From the IMG/VR virus record IMGVR_UViG_3300035670_000367, positions 1 to 46,482 of that record: 46,482 bases of DNA, one strand, 5' to 3'. Shown here in pieces: positions 2,744-44,713 of the stretch. Every line of letters starts with the position of its first letter. Within the stretch, counting starts at the first letter, position 1. Made by a program: the position numbers and the translations under genes. The notes under the pieces are model-generated. The model had not been told where the DNA came from. It searched no databases and worked only from the letters and a program-made list of their open reading frames with translations. Source of the DNA: a virus.

Positions 2744-3363
2744 CACTTTCAAATGAGTGGAGAAGAATGCAGCACTATAGAAATATGGGTCTGAAATTTA
2801 ATAAAGTTTTAGATATTGGTGCTTTTGAAGGTATCTGGGCCCAGAATTTTAAGAACATATATCCTGATGCAGATGTCTTAATGATTGAAGCAAATGAAGA
2901 AAAAGAAGAAATATTAAAAAAGATTGGTCCTTATAAAATAGCATTACTAGGCAAAGAGAATAATAAAGAAGTAGACTATTATAAATGTTTAGATGGTTTG
3001 CAAACAGGCAATACTATTTATAAAGAAAATACAGATTTTAAATTTGCACCAGTAAAGAAAAAAACAATAACTTTACCAACTTTATTAAATTCAGAAGATG
3101 GTTATGATTTAATTAAGATGGACGTACAAGGATCTGAATTAGATATTATTCAAGGCGCTGTACCTATTATAAAAAAGACAACTCATTTAATTCTTGAAAC
3201 ACAGATTCTTAACTTTAATGATAAAGCACCAAGACTTACAGATATAGTTTGTTATTTAAATACATTAAATTTTTCATTAATTGATGTAATTGACTTACAT
3301 TATTCTTTAAATAACATATTATTTCAAATAGATGTTTTATTTGAAAGAAGAATAAATGATTAA
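2740..3363 (+). CDS. FkbM-family SAM-dependent methyltransferase
   Basis: A Rossmann-type class I methyltransferase of 207 aa. The SAM-binding motif I is VLDIGAFEG at about residues 23-31, followed by an acidic residue at the end of strand 2 (VLMIEAN). The FkbM signature DLIKMDVQGSELDIIQGA lies near residues 122-139. FkbM enzymes usually O-methylate sugars or small molecules. It is the first gene of a four-gene block with a second methyltransferase and two glycosyltransferases, which suggests modification of a glycan on the virion or host surface. The substrate cannot be read from the sequence. Confidence 0.85.
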   Translation: MTLSNEWRRMQHYRNMGLKFNKVLDIGAFEGIWAQNFKNIYPDADVLMIEANEEKEEILKKIGPYKIALLGKENNKEVDYYKCLDGLQTGNTIYKENTDFKFAPVKKKTITLPTLLNSEDGYDLIKMDVQGSELDIIQGAVPIIKKTTHLILETQILNFNDKAPRLTDIVCYLNTLNFSLIDVIDLHYSLNNILFQIDVLFERRIND

Positions 3364-14254: not shown

Positions 14255-14827
14255 ATGAATAAACTTTTAGTACACAAACATTTAATTATTCGTGCTGAAG
14301 CTAAAAATCCTCCAATGGATGTTGCTGTTCTTCGCAAGTGGTTTCAAAAATTTATTAATGAAATTGGAATGAAAGTTATGATGGGTCCATATATTAAATA
14401 TTCTCACATGGTAGGTAATCGAGGAATCACAGGAGCAGCTATCATAGAAACAAGTCATATAGTAATGCATGTTTGGGATGAACCCGATCCCGCCTTATTA
14501 CAATTTGATGTCTATTCCTGTGGCGAGTTTGACCCTGAAACAATTTGTAATAAAATAAAAAAAGATTTTAATACTACAAAAATAGAATATAAATTTCTAG
14601 ATCGTGAACATGATCTACAAGAAATACATACTTTAACATATACAGATCCGATAGTTAAAAATTATGAGAATAGAGAAATAGAAAAGAAAAATAATGCATT
14701 ATTAAAAAGTAGAAAAGAAGTTGAGATTAATGGTAGTGGGACTCATGGATATAGAATTAAAGAAGGTATTCATAAAGGCACAGTTGTTGGCCATATTACA
14801 AGAGAAAAATCAGTACTTGAAAATTAA
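14255..14827 (+). CDS. speD: S-adenosylmethionine decarboxylase proenzyme (SpeD-like)
   Basis: 190 aa. The bacterial-type AdoMetDC core is clear: a processing segment with S67-H68 (ETSHIVMHVW), a second histidine at 72, and C89 in FDVYSCGEF. By comparison with known enzymes, S67 would become the pyruvoyl group, H72 would assist processing and C89 would be the proton donor. The glutamate that normally precedes the serine is Thr66 here, with a glutamate one position earlier. The enzyme would decarboxylate SAM for spermidine synthesis, although SpeD-fold proteins that act on arginine or ornithine are known. A charged C-terminal extension of about 50 residues is extra. It stands apart from the virion operon, with hsp20 next. 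Confidence 0.85.
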   Translation: MNKLLVHKHLIIRAEAKNPPMDVAVLRKWFQKFINEIGMKVMMGPYIKYSHMVGNRGITGAAIIETSHIVMHVWDEPDPALLQFDVYSCGEFDPETICNKIKKDFNTTKIEYKFLDREHDLQEIHTLTYTDPIVKNYENREIEKKNNALLKSRKEVEINGSGTHGYRIKEGIHKGTVVGHITREKSVLEN

Positions 14828-14834
14828 TAAATAA

Positions 14835-14906
14835 TCATTATATCTCCTCTAGGTTGCATCATGTGGATGGACCAATTAACTTGCTTAACAAAGGAGATAA
14901 TTATGA
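14835..14906 (+). promoter_or_regulatory. Possible RNA thermometer masking the hsp20 ribosome-binding site
   Basis: TATCTCCT at 14841-14848 is perfectly complementary to AGGAGATA at 14892-14899, which contains the hsp20 Shine-Dalgarno sequence. After a small internal loop, TCAT at 14835-14838 can pair with ATGA at 14903-14906, covering the start codon. The loop between holds a second hairpin (CATC 14857-14860 with GATG 14866-14869, extended by GGT/ACC). RNA thermometers that hide the ribosome-binding site are a known control of small heat-shock genes. Function here is inference. Confidence 0.5.
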
Positions 14907-15325
14907 CAAACCTAGAAGTTTTCAATAATTTAAATAAGCAACTATTCAACGGATCAACAAAGTTTTTTGATGATGCGTTTGAAAATATTTTTGACACGTG
15001 GTCAAAAGTACAATCATTCCCTTTCTATAACGTAGTAAAATACTCAAAGGGTAAATACGGATTAGAAATCGGTTTAGCTGGCTACAACAAAGAGAACGTA
15101 CTTGTAGAAGTTAAAGATGGTATCTTAACAATAGAAGGAAAAGTAGAAGATAAGAATGTAGACTATGTACAAAAAGGTCTAGCATTTAGAAAATTTTTCA
15201 AACAGTTTGAATTAGCTAAAGACGTAATAGTTGATGAAGCTGAAATGAAAGATGGTCTACTTAAAATCAAACTTGGTTTTAACGAACCTAAAGATATTGA
15301 AGGCGTTAAAATAGATATTAAGTAA
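14903..15325 (+). CDS. Small heat-shock protein, Hsp20/alpha-crystallin family
   Basis: The start is ATG 14903, 6 bases after AAGGAG. The protein is 140 aa, normal for IbpA-like sHSPs. The N-terminal arm is Phe-rich, followed by an alpha-crystallin domain with GLEIGLAGYNKENVLVEVKD and the conserved GLAFRKFFKQFEL and MKDGLLKIKL segments near the end. The C-terminal I-x-I-type tail is weak (VKIDIK). It would hold unfolding proteins during infection. Marine phages are known to carry hsp20. It lies between speD and a tiny membrane protein. Confidence 0.9.
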   Translation: MTNLEVFNNLNKQLFNGSTKFFDDAFENIFDTWSKVQSFPFYNVVKYSKGKYGLEIGLAGYNKENVLVEVKDGILTIEGKVEDKNVDYVQKGLAFRKFFKQFELAKDVIVDEAEMKDGLLKIKLGFNEPKDIEGVKIDIK

Positions 15326-44061: not shown

Positions 44062-44289
44062 ATGGAAGATACAATAGATGTAGCAAGTAAATTACAGCGT
44101 TTTATGAGGGAACAATTGAAGAATTTAACTACAATTATTACTTCAGGAGGCGTTGACAATATGGAAGACTACAAGTATATCTTAGGCCAAATTCGTGTAT
44201 ACGAATTTTTATTACAGGAAATCTCTAACCTGCTTAACAAGAAGGAGCTAAATGCAGATGCAAAAGGAAACGTTATCAAACTCGACTGA
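44062..44289 (+). CDS. Small helical head-region protein, 75 aa
   Basis: It has AGGAG upstream and reads VASKLQRFMREQLKNLTTII then SGGVDNMEDYKYILGQIRVY. Comparable G-G-V-x-D-M-E-x-Y-K helical proteins occur before GroES-like or scaffold genes in podoviruses. It overlaps the GroES-like gene by 38 bases. Confidence 0.6.
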   Translation: MEDTIDVASKLQRFMREQLKNLTTIITSGGVDNMEDYKYILGQIRVYEFLLQEISNLLNKKELNADAKGNVIKLD

Positions 44290-44713
44290 AGTACCTAAAA
44301 CGGTATTAGGTCTTGAAGAAAAATATAAAGAAGAAGATAAAAAAACTGTAAGAGCAGAAAATATTACTGACTCTTTAATTGACAGTTTACCACAACCGTC
44401 TGGTTGGAGGATTTTAGTATTACCATTTACACCTAAAGACAAAACTAAAGGTGGAATTATATTCTCACAAGAGTCTTTGGATAAATTAAGAATATCTACA
44501 AATTGTGGATATGTCTTAAAACTTGGTCCGTTGGCCTATAACGATAAGGAACGTTATCCAACAGGTCCTTGGTGCAAGGAAAAGGATTGGGTGATCTTTG
44601 CCAGATATGCTGGCTCAAGACTACCAATAGAAGGCGGTGAAGTCCGTCTTTTAAACGATGATGAAGTACTCGGAACGATTAAAAATCCGGAAGACGTATT
44701 GCATCATATATAA
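44252..44713 (+). CDS. GroES-like co-chaperonin
   Basis: 153 aa from ATG 44252, with AAGGAG 4 bases before it; ATG 44258 is equally possible. After a non-conserved 50-residue N-terminal extension, the GroES fold is seen: PSGWRILVLPFTPKDKTKGG with the mobile-loop IIFSQES, then GYVLKLGPLAY, KDWVIFARYAGSRL and LLNDDEVLGTI. Phage GroES homologues replace the host co-chaperonin so that capsid protein can fold. Place before scaffold and capsid fits this. Confidence 0.8.
   Translation: MQMQKETLSNSTEVPKTVLGLEEKYKEEDKKTVRAENITDSLIDSLPQPSGWRILVLPFTPKDKTKGGIIFSQESLDKLRISTNCGYVLKLGPLAYNDKERYPTGPWCKEKDWVIFARYAGSRLPIEGGEVRLLNDDEVLGTIKNPEDVLHHI

Follow-up and report, generated by a model that had tools for sequence, protein, structure and literature searches.

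The 5′ leader of the hsp20 mRNA examined here is very probably a short, two-hairpin RNA thermometer of the ROSE-like kind, with a heat response that is predicted by comparative sequence analysis and by folding models. The stretch of DNA that carries it (46,482 nucleotides, hereafter ‘the window’) is a 46-kb IMG/VR virus record with genes for portal, terminase, DNA polymerase, helicase and primase proteins, and the closest DNA near its hsp20 locus in the phage collection comes from pelagiphages. An earlier note on this DNA had proposed an RNA thermometer on a phage hsp20 gene, an interpretation that is correct in class and gene, and incorrect in pairing. The gene assignment is borne out by a Pfam HSP20 match (Table 1) and the comparative evidence for the class is strong, whereas the element itself lies at positions 14852-14902 rather than in the pairing that had been put forward. 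A phage-borne ROSE-like thermometer on hsp20 would be a known kind of regulator newly seen in phages, and notable for its breadth.

When the RNA is folded from its inferred start, the minimum free energy (MFE) structure of the leader consists of exactly two hairpins, called hairpins I and II. In hairpin II, the ROSE motif CUU[G]CUU (14880-14886) pairs imperfectly with the Shine-Dalgarno (SD) sequence AAGGAG, and G14883 is predicted to be bulged beside a U.G pair. The two hairpins have a common local motif composed of a Y.G pair, a bulged G and a C-G pair. The anti-SD sequence of the window, CUUGCUU, does not offer the four consecutive U residues paired to the SD that characterize fourU thermometers. 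We also considered a pseudoknot between the loop of hairpin I and the tail, which was rejected on informal comparison because the loop sequence differs between leaders (AUGUG, AUAGG, UUCG, GAAA) and the tail does not.

Table 1. Coordinates of the hsp20 leader, its promoter and gene, and related elements in other virus contigs
Feature	Position	Strand	Description
Promoter	14816-14844	+	CTTGAAA, with -35 TTGAAA at 14817-14822; 16-bp spacer; -10 TATATC at 14839-14844
Anti-SD segment of the earlier note, TATCTCCT	14841-14848	+	Overlaps the -10 box; unconserved; probably outside the mRNA
Whole element	14850-14905	+	Match of covariance model R1, trained with the window left out
Hairpin I	14852-14873	+	GGUU[G]CAUC-AUGUG-GAUGGACC; bulged G14856 between U.G and C-G pairs
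Hairpin II, candidate thermosensor	14874-14902	+	AAUUA-A-CUU[G14883]CUU-AACA-AAGGAG-A-UAAUU; SD at 14891-14896
hsp20, regulated gene	14903-15325	+	Small heat shock protein, 140 aa; Pfam HSP20, E 1e-11; alignment A1
dnaK leader elements	L099 8757-8803; L126 10515-10569 (reverse-complement coordinates)	reverse	

Upstream DNA from 80 IMG/VR relatives of the window Hsp20 protein was used to compare promoters and pairings. The -35 context in these relatives is (C/A)TTGAAA, and in all 57 that carry TTGAAA this box is separated by exactly 16 bp from TATATA or TATATC, with hairpin I following 7-8 nucleotides later. Other phage groups often have TATAAATA or a TATAAT-like box at the same position. Downstream of the promoter, the order in relatives is a hairpin, UUAACUUGCUU, AAGGAG and ATG. 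From the sequence we infer a transcription start at 14851/14852, which is the base of hairpin I. An open reading frame that begins in the hairpin I loop, in frame with hsp20 (ATG 14861, 154 aa), is judged spurious; this start is unconserved, and many relatives carry AUAGG or other loops where hairpin I of the window has AUGUG. Directly upstream of hsp20 is the gene for S-adenosylmethionine decarboxylase (speD, 14255-14827), and a speD-like open reading frame was also recognized by eye from the sequence in contig L126 (3561-3938), which bears dnaK.

The earlier note had envisioned a long hairpin that shuts both the SD and the start codon until heat melts it, in which TATCTCCT pairs with AGGAGATA (14892-14899) and TCAT (14835-14838) pairs with ATGA (14903-14906). 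As read from the sequence, the first complementarity is indeed perfect over 8 bp in the window and in a few close relatives (e.g. L001, L002, L016 and L074), the second pairing can form, and the 8-bp pairing is part of the MFE structure of positions 14828-14910 (-16.5 kcal/mol). This fold exceeds chance expectation only mildly (z = -1.89; 10 of 200 shuffles fold equally well). Three further observations weigh against the mechanism. First, TATCTCCT lies partly within the -10 box and ahead of the inferred transcription start, so it should be missing from the mRNA made from the conserved promoter. Second, most relatives with hsp20 lose this complementarity without compensation, an outcome that the earlier note itself had named as refuting, and the longest pairing to the SD averages 5.9 bp in 49 distinct relatives versus 5.7 bp in shuffled sequences. 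Third, when folded at several temperatures with ViennaRNA, the pairing is still closed at 50 °C, where the unpaired probability of the SD is just 0.19, which is unlike a thermometer. For its overlap with the -10 box, its lack of conservation and its lack of predicted melting, TATCTCCT was rejected as a functional anti-SD, and we consider the mechanism built on it extremely improbable. Most simply, the complementarity is a by-product of the -10 box and start region in one sub-clade; an mRNA that reads through from speD could adopt the alternative fold.

The ROSE-like motif, by comparison, is found wherever phage hsp20 genes were sampled. Genes were picked by protein similarity alone, yielding 18 named phage records together with IMG/VR relatives of the window, Mosig, C48C1, Atu_ph07 and S-CRM01 genes. 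Among those with enough upstream DNA, U(U/C)GC(U/G)...GGA is present in 249 of 249 upstream regions (window-gene relatives 70/70, named phage records 18/18, Mosig 79/79, C48C1 78/78, others 4/4). The named records include L206 (OQ572409, ‘Pseudomonas phage Y7’, unverified and unannotated), which was counted even though its gene is apparently bacterial. Its hsp20, the protein product of which we take to be that of P. aeruginosa, resembles chromosomal ibpA of that species and follows a leader that matches the Rfam model ROSE_3 with 69 bits, and the record may therefore include host DNA. The phages sampled comprise cyanophages, pelagiphages, a methylophage, rhizobial jumbo phages and a Pseudomonas jumbo phage; hsp20 has been described as a core gene in T4-like cyanophages (PMC9004378).

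Alignment A1 was too diverse for the locus search, and single proteins served as queries instead. At the loci around hsp20 that were collected, the motif is found at 123 of 125 hsp20 starts versus 9 of 422 other SD-led starts, the former count not being independent because some loci were selected by the motif, while the latter is an informative control. Two of the nine motif-bearing starts outside hsp20 belong to phage dnaK genes. In addition, a gene-blind scan for the DNA pattern TTAACTTGCTT...AGGAG returned at least 120 stretches, mostly upstream of very diverse hsp20 genes. These sequence comparisons indicate that a ROSE-like leader accompanies essentially every sampled phage hsp20.

The separate small hairpin that the earlier note had seen between its pairing arms is real, and has the strongest covariation of the whole locus. 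When any base was allowed at the bulge, 229 of 232 distinct leaders were seen to have a hairpin bulged by one base on its 5′ side; in 226 of these 229 hairpins that base is a G, usually flanked by a U.G or C-G pair on one side and by C-G on the other. The strict hairpin I motif occurs in 196 of the 232 leaders versus none of 1160 shuffles, and every outer-stem pair of hairpin I exhibits several pair types or compensatory changes among 73 non-redundant leaders. We aligned a more uniform subset of leaders with MAFFT (alignment A3, unfitted to structure) to replace the MAFFT alignment A2, in which hairpin I was misaligned, and used this subset for the covariance model. In A3, 95.6% of the cells are paired, and covariation reaches 0.52 versus 0.18 when shuffled (0/500) and at most 0.14 in slid versions. 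In the same 73 leaders, the ROSE helix is topped by U-A in 62 cases, A-U in four and G-C in one; beside the hairpin II bulge, the Y.G position holds U.G in 60 leaders and C-G in 13. Since the ROSE/SD helix varies little, the covariation support comes mostly from hairpin I.

These data also bear on two readings in which temperature is not the main signal. In one, the leader would combine an mRNA-stabilizing 5′ hairpin with a weakly structured ribosome-binding site, giving a long-lived hsp20 mRNA that is blind to temperature. Hairpin I is indeed stable and lies right where the mRNA is inferred to begin, and a stabilizing function has been suggested for its Pseudomonas counterpart (PMC3669281), but the invariant U(U/C)GCU anti-SD and the compensatory exchanges in the uppermost pair of the ROSE helix would be left unexplained. 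The near-confinement of the motif to chaperone genes would likewise go unexplained, and we judge this reading to be very unlikely. In the other, the element would be the binding site of a ligand or of a putative protein such as Hsp20 itself. Hairpin I holds its bulged-G context (Y.G/[G]/C-G) amid changing sequence, as protein-binding hairpins often do, and IbpA of E. coli is reported to act as a repressor of its own mRNA. Yet the same two-hairpin architecture is a thermometer in vitro in Pseudomonas ibpA, where hairpin II alone is enough (PMC3669281), leaving a binding site as an unlikely primary function. Somewhat more speculatively, there is a small chance that hairpin I, with its copy of the bulged-G motif seen in the sensor hairpin, is a putative Hsp20-binding site by which the phage senses aggregation during infection, and that host ibpA and phage hsp20 cross-regulate through their common element.

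The identification of the leader as a ROSE-like thermometer is also consistent with searches by covariance models. Model R1, which was trained on 25 other leaders with the window excluded, has a single significant match in the 46-kb window (14850-14905, 28.0 bits, E 4e-6). When applied to 13 whole phage genomes, R1 picked up the leader of hsp20 in 11 genomes, including one weak match (E 0.04), but not in C48C1 and HTVC103P, and produced no off-target match better than E 0.008. Neither the window nor 20 relatives gave a match, tRNAs aside, to Rfam models at their own thresholds. With relaxed settings, ROSE_3 (RF02523) yielded sub-threshold matches located exactly on several phage leaders, with 12.6 bits for the window and 34.1 bits (E 0.001) for the best phage copy, from Melnitz; no phage copy reaches the gathering threshold of 43 bits. 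At the window and five phage loci these matches cover the full length of the model (1-69), on the right strand and at the right position, ending near the start codon. Judging from the 69-bit match on the P. aeruginosa ibpA leader in record OQ572409, ROSE_3 apparently models the short ibpA leaders of Pseudomonas. A riboswitch or another Rfam class at this site was rejected, as matches other than ROSE_3 were weak and at the level of chance.

Folding models predict that the window leader melts gradually. The predicted probability that the SD is unpaired rises from 0.06 at 10 °C through 0.25 (37 °C) and 0.31 (42 °C) to 0.45 (50 °C), a curve similar to that of the P. aeruginosa ibpA leader (0.04, 0.18 and 0.35 at 10, 37 and 50 °C), whereas E. 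coli ibpB shows almost zero predicted melting under the identical protocol. ViennaRNA omits the noncanonical pairs and geometry of ROSE elements, so that the melting temperatures are rough; this, together with the result for E. coli ibpB, makes the curve weak evidence.

We propose that transcription begins near 14851/14852, at the base of hairpin I, and that this stable stem with its invariant bulged G probably shields the 5′ terminus and insulates leader folding. On the model of the Pseudomonas leader, in which hairpin II is sufficient by itself for thermoregulation (PMC3669281), we take hairpin I to be a stabilizer. In hairpin II, pairing of CUU[G]CUU with AAGGAG, with the bulged G beside a U.G wobble and a lower stem made entirely of A-U pairs, would keep the SD mostly shut at the ordinary temperature of the host. 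Warming would open the weak pairs near the bulged G and allow ribosomes to load, so that Hsp20 would be produced when host or virion proteins risk unfolding.

Several other candidate elements were noted in the course of this analysis. The window carries a phage GroES/Cpn10 gene (44252-44713, + strand; PF00166, E 9e-8) whose leader (44207-44254) contains CCUGCUU...AAGGAG, with a ROSE-G-like anti-SD (CUGCU), and which is the second-best R1 match in the window at 13 bits, a score that is not significant. Of 44 distinct relatives, 43 retain this CCTGCT, but it falls inside the coding end of the upstream gene. Leaders of dnaK with a ROSE-like anti-SD (UUUGCUU or CUUGCUU, followed by AAGGAG) occur in virus contigs L099 and L126, the first of which additionally has a hairpin upstream in its dnaK leader and an hsp20 gene with an element of its own. 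Contig L174, which also has an hsp20 element, contains a second two-hairpin element (reverse strand, 3189-3250; 26 bits) upstream of an 85-aa open reading frame to which no function is assigned.

If the hsp20 leader works as predicted, then water temperature would directly set the supply of phage chaperone, and the purpose of phage hsp20 would become directly testable. The phage leaders also offer hundreds of natural variants of a minimal ROSE element, with an extension to phage dnaK. Our search of the literature on phage hsp20 and RNA thermometers or ROSE elements found no paper describing phage ROSE elements; this search mostly covered work outside the subscription literature, and we do not claim priority.

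Among the matches listed for bacterial genomes, hsp20 has the pattern upstream in Pelagibacteraceae, other alphaproteobacteria, SAR86 and freshwater beta-proteobacteria, and these leaders show by eye a similar bulged-G hairpin I. Because bacterial hosts carry the same element, phages probably gained the gene together with its leader, keeping the structure while the sequence changed. One contig in the bacterial genome collection, L485, has an hsp20 gene and leader of the window type; it probably represents phage sequence that was binned into a bacterial genome, and could be a hint to the host.

The signature of ROSE-like thermometers is UUGCU facing the SD with a bulged G (PMC3669281, PMC11342760), and the two hairpins of the window leader fall within the range of two to four that these elements have. 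Like the phage leaders, the ROSE-like element of Pseudomonas ibpA (Krajewski et al. 2013, PMC3669281) places two hairpins in a leader of about 50-60 nucleotides before a small heat shock gene, with U(U/C)GCU of hairpin II paired to the SD, a predicted bulged G and an unpaired start codon. The P. aeruginosa leader (OQ572409) also has a hairpin I, AU[G]CC..GGGU. The phage leaders differ in being A-U rich and lacking G-C clamps, whereas the Pseudomonas core is clamped by G-C pairs on both sides. Classical ROSE elements (Bradyrhizobium hspA; E. coli ibpA and ibpB) likewise block the SD of small heat shock genes with a U(U/C)GCU hairpin, and UCGCU can be read from the sequence upstream of both E. 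coli genes, but they are composed of three to four hairpins rather than two. The ROSE-G and ROSE-like elements of ABC transporter genes (PMC12857270, PMC11342760) share the logic of a bulged-G anti-SD with the phage leaders, although ROSE-G uses CUGCU with opposed bulged Gs on bacterial transporter genes, and the window hsp20 leader uses the canonical UUGCU. Finally, the phage RNA thermometers named in PMC10586365 and PMC11182007 are those of lambda cIII, of SPbeta blyA (a fourU element, PMC10586365) and of one sigma-70 leader in Caudoviricetes (Robo-Therm, PMC11182007). These are temperature-responsive leaders in phage genomes, as the hsp20 element is predicted to be, but they are single cases of the fourU or two-state kind on lysis, lysogeny or sigma genes, in contrast to the ROSE-like leaders on phage hsp20.
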